In this document: positions 8,477-18,189 of the stretch, piece by piece
Layout of the letters: every line of letters begins with the position of its first letter
Position numbering within the stretch: the first letter of the stretch is position 1
IMG/VR virus record: IMGVR_UViG_3300034200_000366
Location: 1-21,130 of that record
Strand: one strand, 5' to 3'
DNA: 21,130 nt
From: a virus
The notes under the pieces: generated by a model
What the model saw: only the letters and a program-made list of their open reading frames with translations
Told to the model about the DNA's origin: nothing
The model's database searches: none
Translations under genes and position numbers: made by a program

Positions 8477-8842
8477 ATGGCAAAAGAAATCCAATCAAAA
8501 GAAGAAGCAATTGAAAGCGTTATGTATGGAAACAAACATGACTTCAATAAAATATTTAGCTTTGCTGAATTATGGGTAAAAAAGCAATTTAAGGTTTTTA
8601 GTGCTGACGATTTGAAAGATGCTTATTATTCAGAGGGAAATCAACCTCCACAACAATTAAATGTATTTGGAGCAGTCTTTAGCAATCTAGCAAAAGCAAA
8701 ACTTATATTTCATCATGGATTTACAAAGTCAAAACACAAAGTTGCTCACGGACGAGATTTGAAAACGTGGATTTCGCTTGAATTTAAACAACGTCAAGCG
8801 AACAATGCAAGTAATAAATCAAATTTAAAATTAGAATTATAA
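8477..8842 (+). CDS. Winged-helix-like phage hypothetical protein
   Basis: A 121-residue protein, last gene before the non-coding gap. The central part reads like a small winged helix: 'FSAELW' type helix, then ADDLKDAYYSEGNQPPQQLN, 'VFGAVFSNLAKAKLIFHHGF' and an end with HGRDLKTWISLEF. The pattern 'PP...NVFG.VF..L.K..LI...G' is common to short proteins in Bacteroidota and other phages that accompany replication or recombination genes. I cannot name the family with certainty. A DNA-binding function is inferred. The C-terminus is Asn- and Ser-rich. It starts 2 nt after the exonuclease stop. Confidence 0.6.
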   Translation: MAKEIQSKEEAIESVMYGNKHDFNKIFSFAELWVKKQFKVFSADDLKDAYYSEGNQPPQQLNVFGAVFSNLAKAKLIFHHGFTKSKHKVAHGRDLKTWISLEFKQRQANNASNKSNLKLEL

Positions 8843-8891
8843 TCGAGTAGTAGGTTTTCTCATGGTAAACCGAGAAGTAGATTATAAACTT

Positions 8892-8940
8892 GAAACCCTT
8901 TCCTGATAACACAGAGAAAGGGTTTCTGCTTATTATAAGC
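8892..8940 (+). terminator. Hairpin ending the recombination operon
   Basis: GAAACCCTTTC (8892-8902) pairs perfectly with GAAAGGGTTTC (8916-8926) across a 13-nt loop. A second small hairpin GCTTAT/ATAAGC (8928-8940) follows directly. The T content after the main stem is modest, so termination may be partial. It lies 49 nt after the last early gene stop, a fitting place to end that operon. Confidence 0.65.
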
Positions 8941-9018
8941 CATTAAAAAATAATTTTATATAAAAATGATAAAAAATAAAAAATAATTCATGATTTGTTT
9001 TTTATTCAAATAAATTTA
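8941..9018. other. Extremely A+T-rich intergenic stretch
   Basis: Between the terminator and the -7 box the sequence is nearly all A and T. I count 8 G or C in the 90 bases 8941-9030. A-tracts just upstream of the TTTG box would suit an UP-element or DNA bending. No ORF or protein-coding pattern is seen here. An origin or unwinding element is possible but has no iteron-like support. Confidence 0.45.
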
Positions 9019-9026
9019 TATATTTG
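8994..9026 (+). promoter_or_regulatory. Bacteroidota-type promoter for late (head/tail) genes
   Basis: TTTG (8994-8997), a 21-nt spacer and TATATTTG (9019-9026) give the same layout as the promoter at 4639-4671. Transcription would begin near 9033, giving a leader of about 113 nt before the ATG at 9147. No other promoter candidate was noticed before the head genes. Confidence 0.7.
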
Positions 9027-9086
9027 TATCGAATTAAATAATCAATGTTGTGATAACATCGGTAAATATTTCGGGTAAAAAATTAC

Positions 9087-9125
9087 AAAACAGTCTTTCT
9101 GCATAAAGTGGAAAGACTGTTTTTT
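9087..9125 (+). terminator. Strong intrinsic terminator in the late leader
   Basis: AAAACAGTCTTTC (9087-9099) pairs perfectly with GAAAGACTGTTTT (9111-9123) around an 11-nt loop, and a T-run covers 9120-9125. It lies downstream of the promoter at 8994-9026 and only 21 nt before the protease ATG. Transcripts from that promoter must therefore read through it. This suggests attenuation or antitermination, though it might also simply insulate the late operon. Confidence 0.8.
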
Positions 9126-9146
9126 GTTTAAAAACCAAAGTAAAAT

Positions 9147-10394
9147 ATGAATTTCGCACTAGCAAGAGAAGTATATGGTATAGGAACGTGGAGTATAGAT
9201 TCAAAATCTTTACCAGCAATGCTTCAAATCTTAGCAAATTCTAAAAATGGTCAAACATTAGAATTACCAGAAGTAAAATATAATTCGATTTCCGTTCTTA
9301 AATTTAAAAGTAGTGATCAAGATGATGTTGAGGACTATGTAGAAGAAGAATACGAACCAACAAACGAGGATATTCAAGGTATAGCAATTATAAACTTGAA
9401 TGGAGTTATTACAGTTGACGGAGGAATGTCAAGCTATGGAATGACAGACTTATCAGAAATGATGTTGAGTTTGAGCAAAAATGATAATATTAAAGGATTT
9501 ATTATTTATGCTAATTCTGGAGGAGGTTCTACAAGTGCTGTTGAAATAATGACAGATGCAATTTCCGAAGTTAAAAAGACAAAGCCAGTTTACGGATTGG
9601 TAAAAAAAGGAGGTATGGCTTGTAGTGCTTGTTTCGCAATCTTAGCTTCATGTCAAGAGATATACGCTGAAAATGAAATGAGCATAGTTGGAAGTTGTGG
9701 AACTATGGTTCAGTTTGAAGGTAGAGCAGCTAATACGGAAGATGGTGAAGGAGAAAAGTATGTTAGACTTTATGCAAGTAAATCTACTAAAAAAAATGAA
9801 GAAGTAGAAGAAGCATTAAACAACAATAATTATAAAGTTATAACGGATAAATTATTAAATCCAATTAACGAAAGGTTTTTAAATTTAATTGAAACAAATA
9901 GACCTATTTTAAAAGGAACAGATTTTGATGATGGTCATACGGAGTTTGCGAAAGATACGGTAGGAAAATTTATAGATGGAATTGCAAGTAAGTCCGAAGT
10001 AATCAAAAAAGTTATAAATAAAACGAGAACAATTAATACTAATACTAATCAAAATTCTAATTCAAAAATGAACAGAACAGAATTAAATCAAGCGCATCCC
10101 GAACTGGTACAAAGTATCATTCAAGAGGGTGTTATTGCCGAAAGAGAGCGAGTAGCTTCTTGGGAGGCGTACAGAGAAGCAGATAGTAAAGCTGTTTCTG
10201 ATGGAATTGCTAGTGGTCTAAAAATCACAGAATCACAATCACACGTTTTTCGAGTGAGTTTAGCTAACAAAGGAAAAGTTGATGCCTTAAAATCTGACAA
10301 TGCAGTAGAAGTTGTTACACCACAATCTACTACTGTTGAAAAAACAGAGGAAAAAAATAATGAAGCGAAAGCCGCTTTTGACTTTGAACTTTAA
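9147..10394 (+). CDS. S49-family head maturation protease with scaffold domain
   Basis: A 415-residue head-maturation protease of the SppA/lambda gpC type. It should cleave scaffold and capsid parts during prohead maturation. The ClpP-like core spans about 75-285. It begins at GIAIINLNGVITVDGG, then ANSGGGSTS (residues 122-130), then KKGGMACSACFAI with the predicted nucleophile S160, then 'SIVGSCGTMVQF' and 'YVRLYASKSTKK', which holds candidate catalytic lysines. The acidic region 58-72 precedes the core. After an Asn/Thr-rich linker (295-306), M308 begins a helical, charged tail that looks like a scaffold protein. This is the first gene behind the promoter at 8994-9026. Neither terminase nor portal is next to it. 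Confidence in the family is high. Confidence 0.85.
   Translation: MNFALAREVYGIGTWSIDSKSLPAMLQILANSKNGQTLELPEVKYNSISVLKFKSSDQDDVEDYVEEEYEPTNEDIQGIAIINLNGVITVDGGMSSYGMTDLSEMMLSLSKNDNIKGFIIYANSGGGSTSAVEIMTDAISEVKKTKPVYGLVKKGGMACSACFAILASCQEIYAENEMSIVGSCGTMVQFEGRAANTEDGEGEKYVRLYASKSTKKNEEVEEALNNNNYKVITDKLLNPINERFLNLIETNRPILKGTDFDDGHTEFAKDTVGKFIDGIASKSEVIKKVINKTRTINTNTNQNSNSKMNRTELNQAHPELVQSIIQEGVIAERERVASWEAYREADSKAVSDGIASGLKITESQSHVFRVSLANKGKVDALKSDNAVEVVTPQSTTVEKTEEKNNEAKAAFDFEL
10068..10394 (+). CDS. Nested scaffold protein candidate (internal start in protease)
   Basis: An in-frame ATG at 10068 (residue 308 of the protease) lies in the A-rich context ATTCAAAAATG. It would give a separate 108-residue protein equal to the C-terminal tail. 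The region after it is helical and charged ('ERERVASWEAYREADSKA') and ends in a Glu/Lys-rich stretch. In lambda, the scaffold Nu3 is made the same way, from an internal start inside gene C. Whether the internal start is used here is inference. Confidence 0.5.
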   Translation: MNRTELNQAHPELVQSIIQEGVIAERERVASWEAYREADSKAVSDGIASGLKITESQSHVFRVSLANKGKVDALKSDNAVEVVTPQSTTVEKTEEKNNEAKAAFDFEL

Positions 10395-15125: not shown

Positions 15126-15533
15126 ATGGCAAATTTTGTATTCGGGGATTGTGTAAATATTACTTGTTCTCACTTAGGCCAAACATATCGGTTTTCTCCA
15201 AAAGCCAACGAATCATTTAATGTTGATAAAGGCGGTATTCGAGGAAATGACGATATGAATCAAGTAACATCAAACGGTCAAATGATGTCACAATTAAACA
15301 ACGCAAGATGGGCTGTTGATGGTCTTATTGCGGTTGATCAAAATTCTGATTTGGAATTATCATCTTTGAATTTAATGGCAGGTTCTCCTTCATTAGGAAG
15401 ATGGCAGTTTGATATGATTTCTGGAGCAATCTACGTTGGAACAGGCAGACCAGTTGGAGATATTGCTACAGATTCAAATGCTGGAACTTTGCCTTTAAAA
15501 GTTTCTGGTGGCGGTATTCTACAGAAAATATAA
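15126..15533 (+). CDS. Tail tube protein (Mu gpM-like)
   Basis: A 135-residue protein in the tube position after the sheath. It has the tail-tube beta-barrel outline: 'FVFGDCVNITCSHLGQTYRF', an aromatic 'NNARWAVDGLIAVDQNSDLE' middle and a C-terminal 'GTLPLKVSGGGIL'. It should polymerise into the inner tube inside the sheath. The ATG lies in the A-rich sequence AAAAATAAAAAGAAATG (15112-15128), which also precedes the fibre gene at 20663. The length is typical for Mu/P2-type tubes. Identity rests on order and fold pattern. Confidence 0.8.
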   Translation: MANFVFGDCVNITCSHLGQTYRFSPKANESFNVDKGGIRGNDDMNQVTSNGQMMSQLNNARWAVDGLIAVDQNSDLELSSLNLMAGSPSLGRWQFDMISGAIYVGTGRPVGDIATDSNAGTLPLKVSGGGILQKI

Positions 15534-15549: not shown

Positions 15550-15966
15550 ATGAAAAACACAGCAGTAAGTAAAGAAGTAGCATTGGATGAATTAGAAAAC
15601 TTTGTAAACAAGTTTGTAAAGAAACCAGTTGCTAAAAATGAATTGGAAGAAACATATCCTGACGTTTTAGATGCAATAATTGATGGTTATTTGTCATTTG
15701 ATGCAGAGGGATTGCCAAAGTTAAAGTTGAAGTTTCCAGTATTAGACGAAAACAAAAATCCAGTTTTATCTGAAATAACGTTTAAGACTAGAATTAAGCC
15801 AACAACGTTAGCAAATTTGGCAAAGGGATTACATCCTCAAAAAGAAGTTTTCCAATTGCAATTGAATATGACTTCGTATATTATTGACCAATCTGTAGCA
15901 ATGCTAGATAAGTTTGAGCGATATGATTACGATGTAATTAATCAAGTTTCTTCGGTTTTTACATAG
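15550..15966 (+). CDS. Tail assembly chaperone, zero-frame product
   Basis: A 138-residue helical and acidic protein between tube and tape measure. Its place marks it as the first tail-assembly chaperone (lambda gpG, P2 gpE, Mu gp41 analogue), which binds the tape measure during tail building. It begins 'MKNTAVSKEVALDELENFVN', has the motif 'LKFPVLDENKNPVLSEITFK' (residues about 58-77) and ends 'INQVSSVFT'. The stop at 15964-15966 lies just after a G GTT TTT run. A -1 ORF that starts overlapping it continues to 16136, so a share of ribosomes should make the longer product. Confidence 0.8.
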   Translation: MKNTAVSKEVALDELENFVNKFVKKPVAKNELEETYPDVLDAIIDGYLSFDAEGLPKLKLKFPVLDENKNPVLSEITFKTRIKPTTLANLAKGLHPQKEVFQLQLNMTSYIIDQSVAMLDKFERYDYDVINQVSSVFT

Positions 15967-16136
15967 ACTGGTGTTACGATGGTTTAGACAATATTATTAA
16001 AAGTCTAGTAGATTATCATCATTGGAATATCAGCGAAGTAAAAAAAATGTATTGTGACAGTTTTGATTTTGAAGGATTGTTATATTGGTACGATGAACTT
16101 ATAAGAATGGATAAAGAATCCAAAAAGAAAAAATAA
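15550..16136 (+). CDS. Tail assembly chaperone -1 frameshift fusion product
   Basis: If ribosomes slip by -1 on TTT at 15958-15960, the first 137 residues of the chaperone join a 58-residue extension (15960-16133, stop TAA at 16134-16136). The result is a 195-residue protein. The extension starts YIDWCYDGLDNIIKSLVDYH and includes 'HHWNISEVKKMY' and 'LLYWYDELIRMDK', ending in Lys residues, much like the second part of gpGT-type chaperones. The -1 frame is open only from 15942 and has no usable start until an ATG deep in the extension. A separately translated gene is therefore unlikely. The terminator at 16139 begins 3 nt after the stop. Confidence 0.75.
15954..15960 (+). promoter_or_regulatory. 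Candidate -1 ribosomal frameshift site (GGTTTTT)
   Basis: In the zero frame this reads G GTT TTT, with the stop TAG two codons later (ACA, TAG). It is the only slippery-type run within the 25-nt overlap (15942-15966) of the zero and -1 frames. The Phe codon re-pairs perfectly after a -1 slip, while Val would pair imperfectly. The hairpin at 16139 is too far to act as a stimulator. Confidence 0.6.
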
Positions 16137-16138
16137 TT

Positions 16139-16181
16139 AAAATCCTCTTAGTTAGTTGTAGAACGGCTAAGAGGATTTTTT
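16139..16181 (+). terminator. Strong intrinsic terminator before tape measure
   Basis: AAAATCCTCTTAG (16139-16151) pairs perfectly with CTAAGAGGATTTT (16167-16179) over a 15-nt loop, and a T-run spans 16176-16181. It is 17 nt before the tape-measure ATG, so it may reduce the tape-measure transcript relative to upstream sheath and tube genes. It shares AGTTAGTT and ACGGCTAA with the hairpin at 1-38. Confidence 0.8.
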
Positions 16182-16197
16182 ACTAAAACAAAGAATT

Positions 16198-18189
16198 ATG
16201 GCTATAGCTGCAATGCGTGTTCCTACTATATTTACTGCTGTAGATAGATTTAGCGATGTTGTTTCCAGAATGACAGCTAAGACTTCTGCTTTTGGAGCTA
16301 CTGCTGAAGCTGCTGCAATGCGTACTTCGAGGTCATTTAATCGAGCAGGAACAAATATGCTTACTGCTGGTGTTGGAATGGCCGTAGGAATAGGATATGC
16401 AGTTAATGAGGCGGTAAAGTTTGAAAAAGCTATGGCCAACATTAGCACTACTATTGATAGTACACCACAATCAATGAGAGTGATGAGCGATTCTATTTTG
16501 AAAATATCAAAAGATATACCCGTTTCTATTTCTGAATTGACCTCTGGAATGTATGATGTTGTTTCTGTTGGAATTGAAGGAACGGCAAATCAATTGTCTG
16601 TTTTGAAAAATTCAAGTTTATTAGCCGTTGCTGGTTTGGGAACAGTTAAAGAAGCTGTTGACATAACTACATCATCAATAAATGCTTTTGGTAAAGAAGC
16701 TGGATCAACAGCAGAGGTTACAAATAAATTATTTAAAGCGGTTAAATATGGTAAAACTACTGTTGCTGGAATTTCTGAAAGTTTTGGTGCTTTTGCAGCT
16801 ATAATGAAAAATTCTGGAGTAACATTAGATGAATATTTAGGTTCTGCTGCTGCTTTGACTACTACTGGTATGACTATGAGTAGAGCGCAAACGCAAATTT
16901 CATCAGCCACAATAGCACTTATTAAGCCAAATTTAACGATGGCAAAAATATATAAAAGATTAGGAGTAAAAGACGTTCCTACTTTTATAAAACAAAGTGG
17001 TGGTTTAGTTGGAGCATTGCAAAAAGTAAATGATGTTTCTCAAAGCATGGGATTGAAGTTAGGTAGTGTGATGGGGAGAAAAGAAGGACTATCTGCATTG
17101 TTATCATTGTTGGGTGCGCAAAGAGGTAAATTTGGAGAAATTATGAAAGACATGGCTTCTGGAACAAATGTTTTAGGAGAAGCGTTTTCCAAACAAGAAG
17201 CCACACTTGCTACAAAAATTCAATTAATGAAAAACAACTTAACTATTTTAGCAATAAGAATAGGAGATGTTTTAATTCCTAGAGTAAAAGATTTGGTAGA
17301 TTCTATTTTGCCAGTTGTTCAAAGTGTTACTGCTTGGGCGCAAAGAAATGAAGGATTAGCAAATACGCTTTTAACTGCTGCCAAATGGTTGTTAATATTG
17401 GGGGTTGCATCCAAAATAACAGCATTTTTATTCTATGGATTAGCAAAGGCAATAGCTTTTGTTAAGTGGGCGCAAATAGCATATACTACCGTTGTTGAAC
17501 TTTGTACTGTAGCAACGTATCTAGCTGCTTCTGGTCAAGCTACATTTGCAGCTAGTTTGTGGGCGGTTGCTAGTGGATTAATGGCGGCTTATTGGCCAGT
17601 ACTTTTAGTAGTTGCTGCTTTAGGCGGATTGGCTTATGCTTTTTCTAACAGCAAAAAATCTACTGATTTTATGGTTAACGGACAAATAATGGCTTTAGGA
17701 AAAAGCAATAGAGCTTGGGAAAACAACACAAATACAATAAAAGTTGAATTAGCAAAACAAAGAAGTGCTGTTGAATCTGTTTTTAAAAGAACAAATTTAC
17801 AAGTTAATAGTCCTTATGATAAGAATAATTTATATGATTTAGGTGCTAACGGAATTGGAATGATAAATCAAAACGAAAAGAATAAATATTTATCTCAATT
17901 TAAAGGACTTGATGCAAGAACTTTAGCGAATATTTCTAAAAATTATGACATGAGCATGCAATCTGCTACAAAAAAATATTCTTTACCAAGTTCAGAAAAT
18001 GCTCCAGCCACTAATTTAGCGGGAAATCTATATTCAAAAGATGTTGAAATGATGGATTTTATGAAAGCTAATGAAAAAAGATTTAATTTAGATTTGAATG
18101 TTACTGCACCAGATGGTTATGGTGTTGAAGCAGGAAAAGCACCCGAAGGAATTACTGTAAAAACTACTAAAAATCAAGGAAACCGATAA
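16198..18189 (+). CDS. Tape measure protein (TIGR01760-like)
   Basis: A 663-residue tape measure protein that sets tail length. The N-terminal half has the classic outline: 'AVDRFSDVVSRMTAKTSAFG', then 'GTNMLTAGVGMAVGIGYAVN' and 'FEKAMANISTTIDSTPQSMR', then 'SISELTSGMYDVVSVGIEGT', matching the phage tail tape measure family. Two hydrophobic stretches (about 391-425 and 432-482) are typical membrane-contacting segments. The C-terminal part is charged and probably disordered. At about 0.15 nm per residue the tail would be near 100 nm, an estimate from the known ruler rule. It is preceded by a terminator. The stop TAA shares its last base with the next ATG. Confidence 0.9.
   Translation: MAIAAMRVPTIFTAVDRFSDVVSRMTAKTSAFGATAEAAAMRTSRSFNRAGTNMLTAGVGMAVGIGYAVNEAVKFEKAMANISTTIDSTPQSMRVMSDSILKISKDIPVSISELTSGMYDVVSVGIEGTANQLSVLKNSSLLAVAGLGTVKEAVDITTSSINAFGKEAGSTAEVTNKLFKAVKYGKTTVAGISESFGAFAAIMKNSGVTLDEYLGSAAALTTTGMTMSRAQTQISSATIALIKPNLTMAKIYKRLGVKDVPTFIKQSGGLVGALQKVNDVSQSMGLKLGSVMGRKEGLSALLSLLGAQRGKFGEIMKDMASGTNVLGEAFSKQEATLATKIQLMKNNLTILAIRIGDVLIPRVKDLVDSILPVVQSVTAWAQRNEGLANTLLTAAKWLLILGVASKITAFLFYGLAKAIAFVKWAQIAYTTVVELCTVATYLAASGQATFAASLWAVASGLMAAYWPVLLVVAALGGLAYAFSNSKKSTDFMVNGQIMALGKSNRAWENNTNTIKVELAKQRSAVESVFKRTNLQVNSPYDKNNLYDLGANGIGMINQNEKNKYLSQFKGLDARTLANISKNYDMSMQSATKKYSLPSSENAPATNLAGNLYSKDVEMMDFMKANEKRFNLDLNVTAPDGYGVEAGKAPEGITVKTTKNQGNR

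Follow-up and report, generated by a model that had tools for sequence, protein, structure and literature searches.

A probable -1 frameshift in a phage tail assembly chaperone gene, whose second part lies in another frame in some close relatives

How could a reading frame be translated that opens inside the end of another gene and has no start codon ahead of its conserved domain? Such a frame is found in the DNA of a flavobacterial phage analysed here, a stretch of 21,130 nucleotides (the window). On its + strand, the tail tube protein gene (15126..15533; PHROG 4699, E 2.7e-43) is followed by ORF A (15550..15966; PHROG 4648, E 5.9e-38), which has 138 codons, ends with the TAG at 15964-66 and would code for a short, gpG-like chaperone of 138 aa. 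ORF B (15942..16136, + strand; PHROG 5697, E 1e-13), putatively of the gpT or P2 E' kind, lies in the -1 frame, which stays open between 15942 and the TAA at 16134-36, and it is followed by the tape measure protein gene (16198..18189, + strand; PhageMin_Tail PF10145, E 3.7e-25; PHROG 28). A first-pass annotation, made from the letters of the window, had given the same end for A and the same limits for the -1 frame, and the ORF coordinates confirm both. A tail sheath gene precedes the tail tube gene and baseplate genes come after that of the tape measure protein, a neighbourhood which indicates a phage of the contractile-tail type; the position of A, between tail tube and tape measure, is that of gpG/gpGT chaperones. 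Further upstream, ahead of an ORF that starts at 9147 and precedes the capsid gene, the window holds early genes and no terminase or portal gene was recognised there; about 300 bases (8842-9147) are without a called + strand ORF, and the record may be a fragment.

At the junction the A frame reads TCG GTT TTT ACA TAG, and the overlap contains, as had been noted earlier, a single slip-type run, G_GTT_TTT (15954..15960, + strand), with the core tetramer T_TTT at 15957-15960. A -1 slip at the TTT of 15958-60 would leave 15960-16133 to be read as a 58-residue extension, and the long product would have the 195 residues (137 + 58) proposed in the first-pass annotation. The earliest ATG, GTG or TTG in the B frame of the window is the ATG at 16048, already within the conserved domain, and the warning that ordinary ORF calls would miss the extension for want of an early start proved right: the frame adds to the genome a part that ordinary gene callers pass over, and B is unannotated in the GenBank/RefSeq records of FL-1 (L007), FCL-2 (L010) and FCOV-F56 (L146).

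The first set of relatives consisted of 49 distinct junctions, from IMG/VR scans plus isolated phages, among them FL-1, FCL-2, FCV-11 and phi3:1. A, B, their overlap and the junction NTT_TTT are kept in all 49, and B is present in 86/86 phage records with A (Flavobacterium and Cellulophaga phages). Median dN/dS is 0.45 for A and for B alike, and near pairs of B give 0.08-0.25, that is, purifying selection. B is an ORF beyond chance, since it has its own PHROG 5697, accompanies A in all these records and is under purifying selection. Homopolymer runs being prone to error, one could suppose that a single gene was split in two by sequencing or assembly; the split, however, has the identical position in the 49 distinct relatives and is carried by isolated phages, which refutes such an error and leaves it a practically negligible probability. 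It is very improbable too that B is a separate gene with its own start, translated by coupling or by re-initiation at the stop of A. Two GenBank annotations, those of FCV-11 and phi3:1, do treat B as an ORF of its own, with a start ahead of the run. Against this, the first start codon of the window's B frame falls within the conserved domain, 15/49 relatives have no ATG, GTG or TTG in the B frame before the HHW motif, no start position is shared by all (the most widespread is common to at most 13/49), and a separate gene would explain neither the fixation of NTT_TTT nor the hairpin described below. What is found is an overlapping second ORF in another frame lacking a conserved start of its own, as in gpG/gpGT chaperones; relatives devoid of the overlap, or with an independent start for B, either of which would have spoken against the frameshift, were not encountered among those compared.

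What the two parts may do is suggested by their likeness to known proteins. The viral fold matches of A (AlphaFold pLDDT 92.8) include a tail assembly chaperone (probability 0.99) and the tape measure chaperone of Burkholderia phage Mica (0.97), the named matches having E values of 0.05-0.19 and three stronger ones carrying no name. Among 41 relatives of A compared with Pfam, five match Phage_TAC_7 (best 1.9e-4), two TAC_4 (7e-5) and one TAC_3; the A protein of the window gives, alone, no significant match to a chaperone family. Nothing significant came from PDB sequence and fold searches, and the best phage-type protein in the non-significant fold search of A is YqbN (3klu), which we take to be prophage-derived. 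A appears, in sum, to resemble known tail assembly chaperones in its predicted fold and, weakly, in its sequence. B aligns with E' of phage P2 (hhalign probability 76.6, E 2.1e-5; YHHWNISEVKKM / IFHWPPSELYPM), and one B member matches PHROG 9001, tail assembly chaperone, at 0.002. Likeness to known chaperones, by homology or by fold, is another trait of the gpG/gpGT type, as is a conserved slippery site in the overlap.

That site shows the strongest conservation of the junction. The first base of NTT TTT in the A frame is G in 40, C in 6 and A in 3 of the 49 junctions, whilst this Val, Leu or Ile codon always ends in T (49/49; comparable columns of the codon alignment of A range over 0.22-0.74) and Phe is always written TTT (49/49, as opposed to about 0.8 in other columns). 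The counts are inflated by relatedness, which the comparison columns share; codon usage falls far short of explaining such fixed third positions at the junction. NTT TTT is present too in all ten members that were held out from this count and lack a canonical heptamer. In some members the stop of A comes 4-5 codons later, yet the distance from the run to the conserved Trp of B is constant, this Trp being placed exactly 3 codons past the slip in nearly all of them; the conserved feature is the run, not the stop of A. Later scans, with B and of bacterial genomes, added 33 further junctions by sequence, 25 of which have a scored site and differ in their downstream regions. Fifteen distant homologues have a textbook heptamer, T_TTT_TTT, T_TTT_TTC or T_TTT_TTG, and one member of the later set (L130) has C_TTT_TTC at the slip site. 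The inclusion of unambiguous -1 heptamers in the family supports ribosomal slippage for its remaining members.

The window itself has no canonical X_XXY_YYZ heptamer, as its Val codon GTT would be mismatched on GGT, and tandem slippage in the P and A sites was rejected as a general rule, the base before NTT varying between G, A, C and T among relatives. The first-pass annotation was right about the mismatch; what it had thought a possible unusual variant is better read as a U_UUU tetramer, of a class known in E. coli. According to PMC4066793, U_UU.Y is among the tetramers most prone to shift in this bacterium and involves only A-site re-pairing, which removes the worry over the Val codon. The A-site codon is cognate one base back, UUU to UUU, in all members, and the working motif is a U_UUU tetramer of the bacterial -1 kind in which the A-site tRNA alone re-pairs. 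The codon before NTT_TTT is TCG in 20/30 of its Ser codons, compared with 5% of background Ser codons. A G (TCG) just before NTT_TTT occurs in 26/42 members of the first set with B in the -1 frame and in 0/7 of those with B in the +1/-2 frame; G is preferred before CTT as well, although no pairing is gained there.

Downstream of the run lies an RNA hairpin, absent from the first-pass annotation and a likely stimulator of the frameshift. In the window it occupies 15968..16033 of the + strand (about 66 nt), with an MFE of -17.2 kcal/mol and a z of -2.53. Over the relatives, dinucleotide shuffles are far less stable than the 80 nt after the run (z -2.86 on average; below -2 in 34/49), and the 75 nt after it are more stable than synonymous-codon randomisations in which the B protein is unchanged (average z -2.49, with 35/49 below -1.64). 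RNAalifold found no common structure on a 33-row alignment; in place of its consensus, the analysis relied on folds of single members, on synonymous randomisation and on counts of covariation. Covariation exceeds all 500 shuffles in score, in cells paired and in pairs with changes on both sides, and every slid version in score and cells paired. The consensus stem extends from the pair 7-70 to the pair 33-44, counted after TTT, and its spacer from TTT is 6 nt, or 7 in the window. Stimulators usually begin 5-8 nt downstream of the slip site (PMC4066793), and a structure at this distance is found in most, not all, members; the hairpin is absent from L033, L051 and L077. In four relatives (L006, L023, L025, L074) a compact 6-bp hairpin 5 nt past the run, CGCUGG-GUAA-CCGGCG in the first of them, replaces the long one, and the stop of A is displaced. 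Tetramer members have the stronger hairpins (median -2.9, as against -1.13 in heptamer members; p 0.005, relatedness not corrected), as if these compensated for the weaker motif.

The conserved run, the overlap and B itself, all universally kept, the lack of a conserved start for B, the likeness to chaperones and P2 E', and the selected hairpin after the run can be read from the sequences, and together they make a -1 frameshift the best explanation. It is very probable that the phage makes a tail assembly chaperone of the gpG/gpGT or P2 E/E+E' type in two lengths, A being the short form and A-B the long one, in the manner which the first-pass annotation had thought probable; the occurrence of slippage, its rate and the chaperone activity we infer from comparative data. 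Most ribosomes would terminate at the TAG of 15964 and release a product of 138 residues. In a minority of them, made to pause by the hairpin, which starts 7 nt past TTT, the tRNA-Phe on UUU (15958-60) would re-pair with the identical UUU (15957-59) one base back, whilst the Val tRNA in the P site would re-pair poorly; these ribosomes would then read Tyr-Ile-Asp-Trp and onwards to the TAA at 16134 and make the long form of 195 residues. The analogy with lambda would assign binding of the tape measure protein to the A part and recruitment of tail tube subunits to the B part. PHROG 4648 and 5697, both families without a known function, would in this way receive a putative one.

The first-pass annotation had also proposed comparing related phages for conservation of the run and of the -1 frame. 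The run is kept in 49/49, but the frame is not always -1: eight distinct relatives carry B in the +1/-2 frame, which would be entered at this same run. Seven of these are among the 49 of the first set (L004, L005, L007, which is FL-1, L021, L047, L050 and L052) and one, L101, was found later; all carry NTT TTT TC[A/G], and a -1 slip in them would terminate after 5-11 codons. L017, with B in the -1 frame, and L005, with B in the +1/-2 frame, have in common 15 identical nucleotides, ACAGTTTTTTCATAG, and are separated by an indel further on. The tree of members requires three changes of frame state; a single clade for the +1/-2 state is not rejected by the AU test (p 0.151).

The trick is known from other phages, and a B in the other frame after the same slip site in close relatives is less expected. 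Transcriptional slippage on the T-run, by which mRNAs with added or lost U would supply both frames, would naturally yield -1 and +1/-2 frames from one run. We nevertheless regard it as very improbable, for the runs are merely T5-T6, short for slippage of RNA polymerase, the selected hairpin is downstream of the run and hence untranscribed when the polymerase passes it, and distant members keep the ribosomal heptamer T_TTT_TTY in register. With ribosomal slippage preferred, the +1/-2 subset could be due to +1 slippage of the P-site tRNA-Phe on TTTTTTC or to -2 slippage, and the chances seem to us evenly divided. T6C, needed for +1 and not for -2, is present in 8/8 distinct +1/-2 members, their hairpins are weaker (p 0.004), and known access to this frame is mostly by +1 (PMC5009743). 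On the other hand, with a -2 reading the number of residues from Phe to the conserved Trp stays 3, as in the -1 members, and the length of the product is constant; there is precedent in the animal arteriviruses PRRSV and SHFV, in which G_GUU_UUU serves for both -1 and -2 shifts (PMC6675879), and in the -2 shift of phage Mu (PMC5009743). Tentatively, and with less than even confidence, we suggest that the short T-run is a slip site promiscuous in direction, left in the -1 and the +1 (or -2) frames, and that one-base indels downstream set which of them each phage uses, so that the direction of the frameshift would change between close relatives with the slip site unchanged, as between L017 and L005. 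Different tailed phages are known to use -1, -2 or +1 (PMC5009743); in the literature searched we found no description of a switch of direction within one close family on the same site, nor a report of frameshifting in this phage group. The family amounts to a natural experiment, in which three kinds of site, a canonical heptamer, a U_UUU tetramer with a supporting hairpin, and a run with its second frame at +1/-2, would yield the same product, and the evolutionary change of a site's frame direction becomes directly testable in it.

Among known systems, P2 gpE/gpE+E' occupies the same gene position and shifts by -1 at a T-run close to the 3' end, but its slip site is the canonical T_TTT_TTG, whereas that of the window is G_GTT_TTT, interpreted here as a U_UUU tetramer; gpE has no significant similarity to A. 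Lambda gpG/gpGT, likened here by its description, likewise has a short chaperone and a frameshifted long form before the tape measure, from which the role is taken by analogy (PMC5009743), though its slip motif differs. Mu, another contractile-tail phage, has a shifted tail chaperone, gp41, before the tape measure; its shift is reported as -2 (PMC5009743, PMC2628397), as opposed to -1 in the window and to +1/-2 in only a subset of the window's relatives, and hhalign of A against gp41 gives a negligible match. The nsp2 site of PRRSV and SHFV has the identical 7 nt, where the tRNA-Phe of the A site is able to re-pair in the -1 as well as the -2 frame (PMC6675879), but it belongs to eukaryotic viruses, and its stimulator is a protein complex on a C-rich motif instead of a hairpin. 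Closest in mechanism are the Z_ZZN tetramers of E. coli (U_UU.Y), with A-site-only re-pairing and a hairpin 5-8 nt downstream; the available portions of PMC4066793 describe them mainly for IS elements and do not name the chaperone family of the window.

A scan of bacterial genome contigs with A gave no match, and one with B matched four bacterial-genome contigs. Three relatives (L142, L144, L145), which may be prophages, come from contigs in genome records of Ulvibacterium, Mucilaginibacter and Bacteroidetes and share the site TCG GTT TTT with the window. Finally, between B and the tape measure gene the window has a hairpin followed by a T-run (16140..16181, + strand; -18.0 kcal/mol), which resembles an intrinsic terminator and, like the change of frame among relatives, had escaped the first-pass annotation. 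A terminator scan with a loop limit of 8 does not list it. In phi3:1 it is absent and the tape measure gene comes directly after B; a similar one is present in 32/49 relatives. The hairpin could reduce the expression of the tape measure protein relative to the chaperone.
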